This document shows positions 19,747-24,123 of a stretch of 45,692 bases of DNA, piece after piece (the stretch's first letter is position 1; each line of letters begins with the position of its first letter). The DNA lies in the NCBI RefSeq assembly GCF_000210715.1, contig NC_021038.1:2491879-2537570 (forward strand). Direction: 5' to 3'. Source of the stretch: Fretibacterium fastidiosum. Lineage in GTDB: Bacteria; Synergistota; Synergistia; Synergistales; Aminobacteriaceae. Both the position numbers and the translations under genes were made by a program. The notes below the pieces were generated by a model. It was not told where the DNA came from, did not search any database, and worked only from the letters and a program-made list of their open reading frames with translations.

Positions 19747-21054
19747 TTATTTTTCGCTCTCGTTTCCGATCTCGCGGCCGCTCTTGAGCCCGGCATGTAC
19801 AACCACGGACGGCTGGCAGTTCGTGTACCTGCCGCCGACGTAGCGACCGATCAGTCCCCCCACGATATCGCCGCCCCGAACCTCCTCGTCCGACGTGCAG
19901 TGATCCAGCAGCCCCTTCTCCATCTGCCCGGTGACCCCGCCGACGTTGGCCCTGCCGTTCACGGAGGCCGTCGAGAGACAGCGCATGGCAGTCCCCCCAC
20001 GCCACAGGCCGAACGCGCCGCCGACCTGATTCGTCCCCATGACGTTGCCCTGGACCGAGGCGTCTTTCACCGTGCCCTGGGCATTGAACCCCAGAACTCC
20101 CCCCACGTTCTCCACGCCCTCCACGTTGCCGTCAAAGGCCACGGATTGAAACTGGATGGGACCGGCCGCGGCCCCCGCCACGCCGCCGACGTTTTCCGTT
20201 CCGGCGACGGTGCAGCGCTCGACTGCAGCATTCTGAAGGAGCCCGGCCTGAAACGTCCCCGCCATGGCCCCCACGTTCTCACGCCCCTCGATGCTGCTGC
20301 CGGAGACGGAGACGTTCATCAGGACGGATCCGAACGCGCCGCCGGCGATGCCGCCCGCACTGGCCCCCGCGCCCTTTACCCTGCCGATGAACTCCGAGTG
20401 CAGGAGGCGGCACTCCATCGCGTTGCCGATCATGCCGCCCACGTTCTGGCTGCCGGCGACGGAGCCGGACACGGAGACGTTCTTCACCGTGGACTTCTGC
20501 GCGGCACCGGCCAGGATCCCGACCTCCGTCACTCCGTTCACCTCGGCGTCCTCAACGGTGAGGTTGCAGACGTAGGCTCCCGAGAGCGTGCCGAACAGGC
20601 CCACCGGGTCCTTCCCCGCGTGTTTCAGCGACAGGCCGCTGATCGTGTGCCCATTGCCGTCAAAGACGCCGCTGAACGCCAGGGTTCTACCGATGCGCGA
20701 GAAGCCGATGGGAACCCAGGCCCTTCCTCCAAGGTCCACGTTGGCGGTCAGCCGAACGTACTTGCCCGCGTAGTTCCTCCCGCCATTGACCAAAGCGGCA
20801 AAGGCGCGAAGCTGCGCCTCCGTGCCGATGGTCCATGGGCTCTTTGCGGTGCCCCGCCCTCCCGTGAAGGGGGAGACCGCCTTTCGTTTGCCGGCCTCTC
20901 TCCTGCGTAGCCTCGCCTTCCGCACCGTCCTCTTTCCGTCAGGCGTCCTGGTCACAACCCGTGGAGCGCCCTCGGCGGAGACAGGGGCAAGCTCAGGCAA
21001 CACAAAGGTGAAACTCAGAACGCATAAAAGACAGAGAGCAAAGCCAACCCTCAT
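19747..21054 (-). CDS. Secreted GLUG-repeat beta-helix protein
   Basis: A 435-residue exported protein. The signal peptide begins MRVGFALCLLCVL (about 1-27), then a basic stretch (RKARLRRREAGKRK), then about nine degenerate repeats of roughly 25-30 residues built on NVGGxxG and GxVxNxxVxG, typical of GLUG/right-handed beta-helix surface proteins. No anchor, sortase signal or autotransporter barrel is visible at the C-terminus. Its role is probably adhesion or surface display. The frame is open to an ATG at 21117, but a possible promoter (-10 at 21126-21131) would start transcription almost on it, and the signal peptide fits the ATG at 21054, so I prefer that start. It is divergent from the SPFH operon. 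Confidence 0.78.
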   Translation of the reverse strand: MRVGFALCLLCVLSFTFVLPELAPVSAEGAPRVVTRTPDGKRTVRKARLRRREAGKRKAVSPFTGGRGTAKSPWTIGTEAQLRAFAALVNGGRNYAGKYVRLTANVDLGGRAWVPIGFSRIGRTLAFSGVFDGNGHTISGLSLKHAGKDPVGLFGTLSGAYVCNLTVEDAEVNGVTEVGILAGAAQKSTVKNVSVSGSVAGSQNVGGMIGNAMECRLLHSEFIGRVKGAGASAGGIAGGAFGSVLMNVSVSGSSIEGRENVGAMAGTFQAGLLQNAAVERCTVAGTENVGGVAGAAAGPIQFQSVAFDGNVEGVENVGGVLGFNAQGTVKDASVQGNVMGTNQVGGAFGLWRGGTAMRCLSTASVNGRANVGGVTGQMEKGLLDHCTSDEEVRGGDIVGGLIGRYVGGRYTNCQPSVVVHAGLKSGREIGNESEK

Positions 21055-21125
21055 CAGGCCCTTTCCCGCTTTTCCCTCACGCGGCGATCTCTCGACAGAC
21101 ACCATCGACCTTGACATCCTTTCGC

Positions 21126-21329: not shown

Positions 21330-21358
21330 TTGACATAACCCCCGCCGTTCTGCAAAAT
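21330..21358 (+). promoter_or_regulatory. Promoter of the SPFH/zinc-ribbon operon
   Basis: A perfect TTGACA (21330-21335), a 17-base spacer and CAAAAT (21353-21358) on the + strand, 80 bases before the first gene. A 24-codon open frame (21311-21385) also lies here but has no well-placed ribosome-binding site. Confidence 0.5.
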
Positions 21359-21437: not shown

Positions 21438-22040
21438 ATGATCTGTCAGCACTGCGGAGCCCCTCTGGAAGCGGGAATAGAGCTCTGTTCCTTCTGCGGC
21501 TCCCCGACGCCCTACGACGAGATGCTCCTGGACGAAAAGATCCAGCGGAAACAGGCACTTCAGCGGAAGAAGAAGCTGGCAGGGCTCGCCGCCATCAAGC
21601 ACGTCTCAGACCTGTCCCTGCCCTTCCTATGGATCGCGACCATGGGCATCTACAGCCCCGTCTGGTATCTGACGAGGGCACGATCGCTGAACCGCATGAA
21701 CTCCCCCAAAAAACTGCCCGCCTTCGCCACGATCGTCCAGCTGGTCCTCTACCTCGGCGCCCTGAGCCTTCCAGGTGCCTGGGAGGGGATCGGGGTAGAC
21801 GCCGAGACGGCCTCGGCATACAACCACTGCGTGTTCGGCGCAAGCTTCTTTCTCTCCATCTGGCTGGCCTTCCGCGTCAAGGACATCCTTCAGGCCCATG
21901 CCGCCCAATACCTCGATAAGGCCGTCGTCGTTCACACCATCGCGCCGTCGGCGGCCCTTCTCGTCGTCTTCGGGCCCCTCTACCTTCAAACCCAAATCAA
22001 CAAGATGATCTTCATGGAGCTCTTGAAGCCCGCCGTCTAG
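21438..22040 (+). CDS. Zinc-ribbon DUF4234-like membrane protein
   Basis: A 200-residue protein with an N-terminal zinc ribbon (C3, C6, C17, C20), a basic charged helix (about 30-48), and about four membrane segments (about 60-80, 95-112, 128-145, 163-182). The segment around MGIYSPVWYLTRARSLNR resembles the DUF4234 signature. AGGAGG lies 9 bases before the ATG. It is the first of three + strand genes (followed by the SPFH protein), all with zinc ribbons and/or membrane segments. Function unknown; the context suggests a membrane-associated assembly. Confidence 0.75.
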   Translation: MICQHCGAPLEAGIELCSFCGSPTPYDEMLLDEKIQRKQALQRKKKLAGLAAIKHVSDLSLPFLWIATMGIYSPVWYLTRARSLNRMNSPKKLPAFATIVQLVLYLGALSLPGAWEGIGVDAETASAYNHCVFGASFFLSIWLAFRVKDILQAHAAQYLDKAVVVHTIAPSAALLVVFGPLYLQTQINKMIFMELLKPAV

Positions 22041-22090
22041 GCGCGGCAGGCAAACTTAAAAATTTATCGAGAATGGAGTGACGGCCCATC

Positions 22091-23305
22091 ATGGCTTTGC
22101 TACAGATCGTACAGTGGAATGAGAAGATCGACAGCGGCGACGTCTTCGCGTGGCGTTGGACGGACGCCAGGGACCCGGTGCGGAGCAACGAGTTGGGGAA
22201 CTGGACTCAGCTGATCGTCCAGGAGACTCAGGAGGCGATCCTCTTTCGCGACGGGCAGGCGCTGGACCTCTTCGGTCCCGGACGCTACACGCTCTCCACC
22301 GAGAACGTTCCCATCCTGCGGCACCTCATCAACCTGCCCACGGGAGGCGAGAGCCCCTTCAAGGCGTGGGTGTGGTTCATCAACAAGGTGAACGTGCTGG
22401 ACGTGAAGTGGGGAACGCAGACCCCCATCCTGCTCCGCGACCCCGAATACCAGGTCCCGCTGCCCGTCCGGGCCTACGGCCAGTTCGGCATCCGCGTCAA
22501 GGAGAGCCGGCAGTTCCTGCTCAAGCTGGCGGGCACCCGCGTGCAGATCACCCGCGAGGACCTGGTGAACTCGTTCCGGGGGCTCCTGCTGAGCCGCATC
22601 GGCGACATGATCGCCACTTATATATCGCAGAAGAAGATCACCATCTTCGACATCAACGCCTACCTCCAGGACATGTCGGACGAGGCGACGGAAGCCCTGC
22701 GCCCCGCGTTCGACGAATACGGCATCGAGTCCGTAAATTTCTTCTTCGGCTCCATCAACGTCCCGGACGACGACGAGGCCGTTAAGGACCTGAAGCGGGC
22801 GATGAGCGAGCGGGCGCGCATGGACCTGAAGGGGTACAGCTACCAGCAGGAGCGCTCCTTCGACGTGCTGGAGGCGACGGCGCAGAACACCGGAGACGGC
22901 GGCGGGGGGTCCCTGATGGCTGCGGGCGTCGGCCTGGGTGCAGGCATGGGGCTTGGCGGCGCCATCGGACAGATGGCCGCCCAGATGGGGCAGTACGTCA
23001 CCCAGGGCACCCAACCCGCCAGCCCGCCCGTAGCCTCTGCGGCCTCGGAAGCAAGCTGCCCCAGGTGCGGCAAGCCCTGCCCCCCCGCAAGCTCCTTCTG
23101 CCCTGCGTGCGGGGCGCGGCTTGCGGAGGAGGAGAACCAGGCCCCGGCCTCCACGCGCAACTGCCCGAAGTGCGGCAAGCCCTGCGCGGAGGACGGCAAG
23201 TTCTGCCCACATTGCGGACTGCCGCTCTCCTGCCCCAACTGCGGAACGCGGCTCGAAGCGGCGTCGAAATTCTGCCCGGAGTGCGGGAAATCACTTCTGC
23301 CGTAA
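22091..23305 (+). CDS. SPFH-domain protein with three C-terminal zinc ribbons (YdjI-like)
   Basis: A 404-residue cytosolic protein. The N-terminal two thirds (about 1-270) resemble the SPFH/virion-core-protein-like family that includes Bacillus YdjI: note ETQEAILFRDGQ, GPGRYTLSTENVP and the PVRAYGQFGIRV strand. A Gly/Ala/Met-rich linker (about 270-305) follows, then three C-x2-C zinc ribbons in CPRCGKPC..CPACG, CPKCGKPC..CPHCG and CPNCG..CPECG (about 318-400). The family binds membranes or partner proteins and takes part in envelope-stress modules. ATG 22091 is 50 bases after the first gene. It is the centre of the three-gene operon; no PspA homologue, its usual companion, is in the window. 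Confidence 0.82.
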   Translation: MALLQIVQWNEKIDSGDVFAWRWTDARDPVRSNELGNWTQLIVQETQEAILFRDGQALDLFGPGRYTLSTENVPILRHLINLPTGGESPFKAWVWFINKVNVLDVKWGTQTPILLRDPEYQVPLPVRAYGQFGIRVKESRQFLLKLAGTRVQITREDLVNSFRGLLLSRIGDMIATYISQKKITIFDINAYLQDMSDEATEALRPAFDEYGIESVNFFFGSINVPDDDEAVKDLKRAMSERARMDLKGYSYQQERSFDVLEATAQNTGDGGGGSLMAAGVGLGAGMGLGGAIGQMAAQMGQYVTQGTQPASPPVASAASEASCPRCGKPCPPASSFCPACGARLAEEENQAPASTRNCPKCGKPCAEDGKFCPHCGLPLSCPNCGTRLEAASKFCPECGKSLLP

Positions 23306-23335
23306 GCGGCATTCGTCACGAAAGGAAGGATCGCC

Positions 23336-24085
23336 ATGAGCATCAAAAGCGCTATCGACAAGCTACACCAGGCTTTTAACCTCGTCCTCGCCTTTTCCCT
23401 CATCGCCGTCACGGCGGGCGTCTTCATCTTCTTCCTCACGACGCCGGAGGAGCGGGGAACGACGTTTTGGATATCCATGGTCTCCCTCGCCTTTGCGCTG
23501 ATCCTGGGCCTGCTCTTCTCCTCAAAGGTCGCGCTTTCCGACGGGCGGGAGGCGCCGGGCAACTTCTCCCACCTGATCGTCGTGGCGGCCTACTTCATCT
23601 TTGTCGTCGGGGCCTCCATCGCCAACGTCTACCTTCACTTCTCGACGACGACGTACTTCCTGATCCACGTCGGAGGGGCAGCGGCCTTCCTCCTCCCCCT
23701 CCTCCTGATCCACATGGCGATGCTGAAGCCCGGGGGCGCGGACCGCAGGGACCAGAGGGAGGGACGCCTGAGCCTCTCGCTCAAGGCAAGCCACCTCCAG
23801 GACCTGGTCAAGAACCTCGAGTTCTCCCTCAACCTGCCCGGAGAGGATTTCTCCCCCCTCCTTCGCCTGGCGGACTCCCTTCAGTACGCGGACCCCACCC
23901 CGGCCTCCAGGAGCACGGAAAATGTCCTGATCGGCGCCCTGAGCGCCCTGGATGGGGCCGTCGCTGCCCTCACGAACGGCACGGAGGCGGATCGGGTCGA
24001 AAAGTGGCAGGCGGTGCTGGCAGCCTGCCACGCCGCGGAGAGCGCCCTGAAACAGCGCAACATGGAGGTTATCAACGCAAAATAG
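23336..24085 (+). CDS. Four-TM membrane protein with cytosolic helical tail
   Basis: Not recognised by family. The 249 residues have four membrane segments (about 14-35, 44-62, 77-98, 105-128). A basic/acidic loop (GGADRRDQREGR) follows, then a soluble C-terminal half (about 145-249) that looks all-helical and contains SLKASHLQDLVKNLEF. It ends the SPFH operon 30 bases after the SPFH gene, with a GAAAGGA ribosome-binding site, and a strong terminator follows its stop. It probably works in the membrane with the other two products. Confidence 0.7.
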   Translation: MSIKSAIDKLHQAFNLVLAFSLIAVTAGVFIFFLTTPEERGTTFWISMVSLAFALILGLLFSSKVALSDGREAPGNFSHLIVVAAYFIFVVGASIANVYLHFSTTTYFLIHVGGAAAFLLPLLLIHMAMLKPGGADRRDQREGRLSLSLKASHLQDLVKNLEFSLNLPGEDFSPLLRLADSLQYADPTPASRSTENVLIGALSALDGAVAALTNGTEADRVEKWQAVLAACHAAESALKQRNMEVINAK

Positions 24086-24123
24086 CGTTGTGGCCCTGAG
24101 GTTCCCTCAGGGCCACAACGTTT
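24086..24123. terminator. Bidirectional terminator between SPFH operon and fhs
   Basis: A perfect 16-bp stem (24086-24101 with 24105-24120), 3-base loop, directly after the TAG stop of the + strand gene. TTT follows on the + strand and CTATTTT on the - strand, so it can end both converging operons. Confidence 0.85.

Follow-up and report, generated by a model that had tools for sequence, protein, structure and literature searches.

Among the known systems of this kind are those built around YdjI, which in Bacillus subtilis is a soluble SPFH protein that requires the membrane proteins YdjG and YdjH in order to form membrane foci (PMC8581546). Surveys of Psp systems have described such combinations of a band-7 domain and a zinc ribbon in association with PspA, TPM and YdjG (PMC11237479, PMC9239133). 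Many bacteria have YdjI-type SPFH proteins without PspA, which raises the question of what partners such SPFH proteins have.

The genes considered here, P1, P2 and P3, lie within a 45,692 nt stretch of the Fretibacterium fastidiosum chromosome (contig NC_021038.1), referred to as the window. An ORF check confirmed the presence, strand and coordinates of all three, as given in the initial annotation; the features of the locus are as follows.

21330-21358, + strand: promoter-like site TTGACA-17-CAAAAT, from a consensus scan (10 of 12 matches)
21438-22040, + strand: P1, 200 aa, an N-terminal zinc ribbon (about 21444-21497) and a DUF4234-like membrane body
22091-23305, + strand: P2, 404 aa, a YdjI-type SPFH protein (PF13421) with its SPFH domain at about 22175-22795
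23057-23302, + strand: the three C-terminal zinc ribbons of P2 (three stretches matching Pfam Zn_Ribbon_1; sequence)
23336-24085, + strand: P3, 249 aa, four TM helices (about 23336-23725) and a putatively cytosolic helical tail (about 23732-24079), from an AlphaFold2 model
24086-24120, strand not assigned: terminator-like hairpin with a 16-pair stem, between P3 and a convergent formate-THF ligase gene

The genes are separated by gaps of 50 bp (P1-P2) and 30 bp (P2-P3), and each is preceded by a purine-rich ribosome-binding region. They were originally proposed to share one promoter and one terminator. A promoter-like site was indeed found around 80 bp upstream of P1, in a region where the scan returned two sites against 0.4 expected, but the terminator is only partly supported, because the T-run of the hairpin belongs to the minus strand and faces the formate-THF ligase gene that converges on P3. 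The divergent gene upstream (19747-21117, - strand) contains GLUG motifs (Pfam E 2.7e-9), and its product has a hydrophobic N terminus resembling an export signal.

P2 is an SPFH protein carrying three zinc ribbons, in agreement with its first description: it matches PF13421 (Band_7_1) with an E value of 6.6e-48 in a Pfam search, and the three Zn_Ribbon_1 stretches occupy residues 323-341, 358-376 and 381-399. The SPFH domain is followed by a short helical part and then by the zinc-ribbon tail. All structure predictions were of single chains, using AlphaFold2; the model of P2 matches solved structures of stomatin, HflK/C and flotillin (Foldseek E 3e-8 to 1e-6), these and prohibitin being the closest folds, and neither this model nor the hydrophobicity of the sequence revealed a TM segment. 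P1, by comparison, has a single N-terminal ribbon of the CxxC...CxxC form, the four cysteines of which are invariant in 18 homologues. Described initially as a four-TM protein, it has about four hydrophobic segments, the first of which is weak. The match of P1 itself to DUF4234, at 22.3 bits, lies below the Pfam cut-off of 25.3; nine of the 18 homologues match this family at E <= 0.001, with a best E value of 4.4e-12. No NTF2-like domain was found with Pfam in P1 or its homologues.

P3 likewise has the make-up originally ascribed to it, with four hydrophobic segments and a helical tail in the sequence, and four TM-length helices and four tail helices in the AlphaFold2 model (mean pLDDT 92, pTM 0.75). 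Lysine and arginine residues are found at the N terminus, in the TM2-TM3 loop and after TM4, a charge pattern that suggests the tail is cytosolic. The initial annotation could not place P3 in a family, and the same is true here: there is no match in Pfam, NCBIfam or PADLOC, a fold search of the PDB with the model returned nothing better than E 0.19, and a search of a viral fold library gave no match. Membership of a known family was further rejected because 77 homologues gave no consistent result in Pfam: there were weak matches to Acyl_transf_3, MFS_1 and UbiA, but these were inconsistent. A sequence match between the tail of the P3 profile and yeast Not5 (E 8e-5) was dismissed as the kind of similarity that helical stretches share in general, the fold search with P3 having given nothing. 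Short forms of P3, of 136-158 aa (L102, L109, L112, L114 and L117), retain the four TM segments, but the tail has been lost and replaced by a conserved ending, D.RQK(D/N)HH; hence the tail cannot be the sole contact with the SPFH protein.

P3 is a near-obligate partner of SPFH proteins in many phyla. When bacterial genomes were scanned using only SPFH patterns, at least 576 relatives were detected, of which the best 80 loci were analysed; these are the ones most closely related to a Butyrivibrio query rather than a random sample. Their labels are mostly Bacillota, with Lentisphaerota, Acidobacteriota, Actinomycetota, Synergistota and others also represented, although many are metagenome bins whose taxon labels may err. 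Using an iterated P3 profile, P3 was found directly downstream of the SPFH gene in 78 of these best 80 of at least 576 loci: 76 through a script, and two (L131 and L175) by inspection, which was needed because the overlap of their stop-to-stop ORFs with the SPFH gene is greater than the script allowed. In the remaining two, P3 either lies 1.66 kb downstream, behind a TIR gene (L123), or the contig ends (L129). Coordinates read from 20 whole genomes place P3 behind all 25 strong SPFH copies, and an SPFH gene in front of 25 of the 27 P3 matches. Of 183 Synergistia genomes, 65 contain P3 and 103 have a P2 match, the latter count including weak matches to the zinc ribbons only; a same-strand SPFH gene directly precedes P3 in 54 of 66 places, whilst some of the other 12 are near contig ends and a few represent real separations (L088/L089). 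The neighbourhood search recommended with the initial annotation tied P3 to YdjI-like genes in each of these three sets.

In a phylogenetic tree, the P3-linked SPFH proteins are found in one supported group (97/92), which also holds four entries without an adjacent P3 in the examined stretch; outside this group are a PspA-linked SPFH protein, whose branch is very long, and two SPFH proteins from Proteobacteria. Bacteroides finegoldii has an SPFH gene, a P3 relative and a zinc-ribbon (ZnR)-TPR protein in a row, and the SPFH protein of Bacteroides has no terminal zinc ribbons. A plasmid search with one P3 query gave no match. On the Butyrivibrio plasmid pNP21 (L093:6169-6950), the SPFH gene is followed by a broken P3 gene, which is split between two frames at a short repeated stretch.

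P1 was found near the P2-P3 pair in 29 of 50 places: convergent and behind P3 in 15, upstream on the same strand in seven and downstream on the same strand in seven. As three arrangements keep it near the pair, its closeness has outlived rearrangement, and the P1-P2-P3 set looks to be stably inherited in the Synergistaceae. Were the three genes a chance grouping, they should rarely be adjacent in relatives; gene neighbourhood at well over a hundred places rules this out, clearly in the case of P2 and P3 and in part for P1, which is located elsewhere in the other 21 of the 50 places.

A second SPFH-P3-ZnR set is present in the genome of the window (L070:4685-7479; G000:C1, about 364684-367478), the third gene of which encodes a ZnR protein with a TPR-like part and several hydrophobic segments that is not DUF4234-like. 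In a Synergistia genome with P3 at a separate place (G075; L088:3522-6864), the genes just upstream of the SPFH gene encode a ZnR-TPR protein like that of Bacteroides and a protein that combines a coiled coil with a TM segment at its C terminus.

The third partner varies between loci. One homologous group of N-terminal ribbon proteins is encoded nearby in 64 of the best 80 of at least 576 loci, any other recurring neighbour being limited to six or fewer of them. Among these best 80 of at least 576, 57 of 69 loci have a ribbon ORF starting in the 3 kb that follow the SPFH gene, in comparison with 10 of 61 for the preceding 3 kb, and one of 53 and three of 49 at 3-6 kb away. The bodies attached to the ribbon include TPR-TIR with DUF6273 or MORN, ankyrin, DUF6591, and TPR or coiled coil, as well as the DUF4234-like body in the window. 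ZnR-TPR-TIR proteins were counted by pattern in 29 of the best 80 of at least 576 loci, across several phyla, and three of these were confirmed with Pfam TIR_2. They have an invariant WVKNEW motif, at a position which we take to be that where TIR NADases carry their catalytic glutamate. One locus (L130:7887-10788) has two adjacent zinc-ribbon genes behind SPFH-P3, both with MORN repeats, one with a TIR domain and one without.

On balance, we lean towards these genes encoding a PspA-independent, YdjI-type membrane platform, in which P3 would be the receptor for P2 and ribbon-bearing clients would be gathered at the membrane. P2 would be a cytosolic, TM-less SPFH protein, probably oligomerising on the inner membrane, with P3 as its dedicated integral membrane receptor, standing in for YdjG and YdjH; this is the simplest reading because P3 is the constant membrane partner of a protein that itself lacks a membrane segment. 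The four TM helices would anchor P3, and its cytosolic side, composed of the tail and the TM2-TM3 loop, would likely contact P2. P1, whose zinc ribbon is of the same type as those of P2, may be either a client or a second anchor, its place being taken elsewhere by other N-terminal zinc-ribbon proteins (TPR, ankyrin, DUF6591 or TIR). As an N-terminal ribbon recurs on the otherwise variable third proteins, and the SPFH protein has ribbons too, it is suggested that the ribbon is the docking element through which clients are collected at the platform. This part is made less certain by the ribbonless SPFH protein of Bacteroides, and zinc ribbons can bind nucleic acid rather than proteins; the platform as a whole is also harder to reconcile with the 21 of 50 places where P1 is elsewhere, and with the few Synergistia genomes where P3 is apart from the SPFH gene. 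The initial suggestion of a membrane complex based on zinc ribbons holds up, whilst the surveillance and cargo clustering attributed to it are roles that we infer, the most plausible purpose of the platform being to detect disturbance of the envelope or respond to it. A broader proposal, which we put forward only tentatively, is that SPFH-ZnR and P3 form a widespread two-protein chassis on which interchangeable zinc-ribbon proteins, including TIR effectors, would dock, with the ribbon as adaptor for a PspA-independent stress or immune platform.

The TIR proteins also raise the possibility, which seems unlikely, of a conflict or defence module, in which SPFH-P3 would watch for damage done to the membrane by phages or toxins and trigger a zinc-ribbon effector: TIR in many bacteria and, perhaps, a membrane-acting P1 in the window. 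The occurrence of ZnR-TPR-TIR next to the pair in several phyla, its invariant motif and the frequent exchange of the third partner would fit such a role. However, none of P1, P2 and P3 matches a PADLOC model, and for most of the TIR neighbours elsewhere the PADLOC matches are only weak; no strong ZnR-TIR was found in the genome of the window; and P1-P2-P3 looks stably inherited in the Synergistaceae, unlike most defence genes.

A role in membrane protein quality control or assembly is improbable. HflK/C encloses or sorts membrane proteins with FtsH, and by analogy an SPFH oligomer and P3 could enclose or sort such proteins with the ribbon proteins as adaptors, as would be congruent with the fold of P2 being closest to stomatin, HflK/C, flotillin and prohibitin; yet P2 lacks the membrane segment of HflK/C, and the recurrent neighbours of the pair in the best 80 of at least 576 loci include neither a protease nor an AAA gene.

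PspA and TPM, reported as missing from the locus, have no match (PF04012 and PF04536, respectively) in the whole 2.73-Mb genome, a single contig estimated to be 89% complete, whilst control genomes were matched; this search rules out PspA being encoded elsewhere in the genome of the window, short of one that has diverged beyond the reach of the profile. PspA exceeds the cut-off in 24 of the 183 Synergistia genomes. Synergistales MS502-76 (L179:3775-13333) carries both a PspA-ZnR-SPFH set and a ZnR-TIR/SPFH/P3 set within 10 kb; hence the two types are distinct and able to coexist. That the module is a degenerate Psp system with its PspA encoded elsewhere is very improbable, for although ten P3-bearing Synergistia genomes have PspA at another place, MS502-76 being a further one beyond these, PF04012 is absent from the genome of the window and from 55 of the 65 P3-bearing Synergistia genomes, no PspA was found in any of the best 80 of at least 576 SPFH loci, and the tree separates the group of SPFH proteins linked to P3 from the one linked to PspA.

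P3 therefore gives YdjI-type SPFH proteins a specific, nearly obligate membrane partner, unnamed in the domain libraries searched. The zinc-ribbon partner alongside it is variable, and roughly one in three of the related loci (best 80 of at least 576) has a TIR protein in this position. Two questions become directly testable: whether P3 recruits the SPFH protein, and whether the ribbons recruit clients. Neither P3 nor the SPFH-P3-ZnR-TIR arrangement was found to be described in the open literature searched, which takes in few subscription papers and preprints.

In comparison with known systems, P2 shares the SPFH fold of HflK/C, stomatin and flotillin but has no membrane segment of its own, and only a short helical part and a zinc-ribbon tail after the SPFH domain. 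The SPFH-NfeD pairs (QmcA-YbbJ type, YuaF/YqiJ) are similar in coupling an SPFH gene to one small multi-TM partner; however, there is no NfeD match among the 77 P3 homologues, and P3 has no fold match in the PDB, although this includes QmcA-YbbJ. The likeness to pspA-ydjGHI (PMC8581546, PMC11237479) was noted from the outset: P2 is of the same Pfam family as YdjI, PF13421, has C-terminal zinc ribbons and no TM segment, and its gene lies beside those of a zinc-ribbon membrane protein and another membrane protein. The differences are that PspA and TPM are absent, with P3 and a DUF4234-like ribbon protein present instead; that a PspA-linked SPFH protein falls outside the group formed by those linked to P3; and that YdjG has two ribbons, an NTF2-like domain and TM, whereas P1 has one ribbon, several TM segments and a DUF4234-like body. 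The module is a variation on the YdjI theme in which the partner family is one not previously described.
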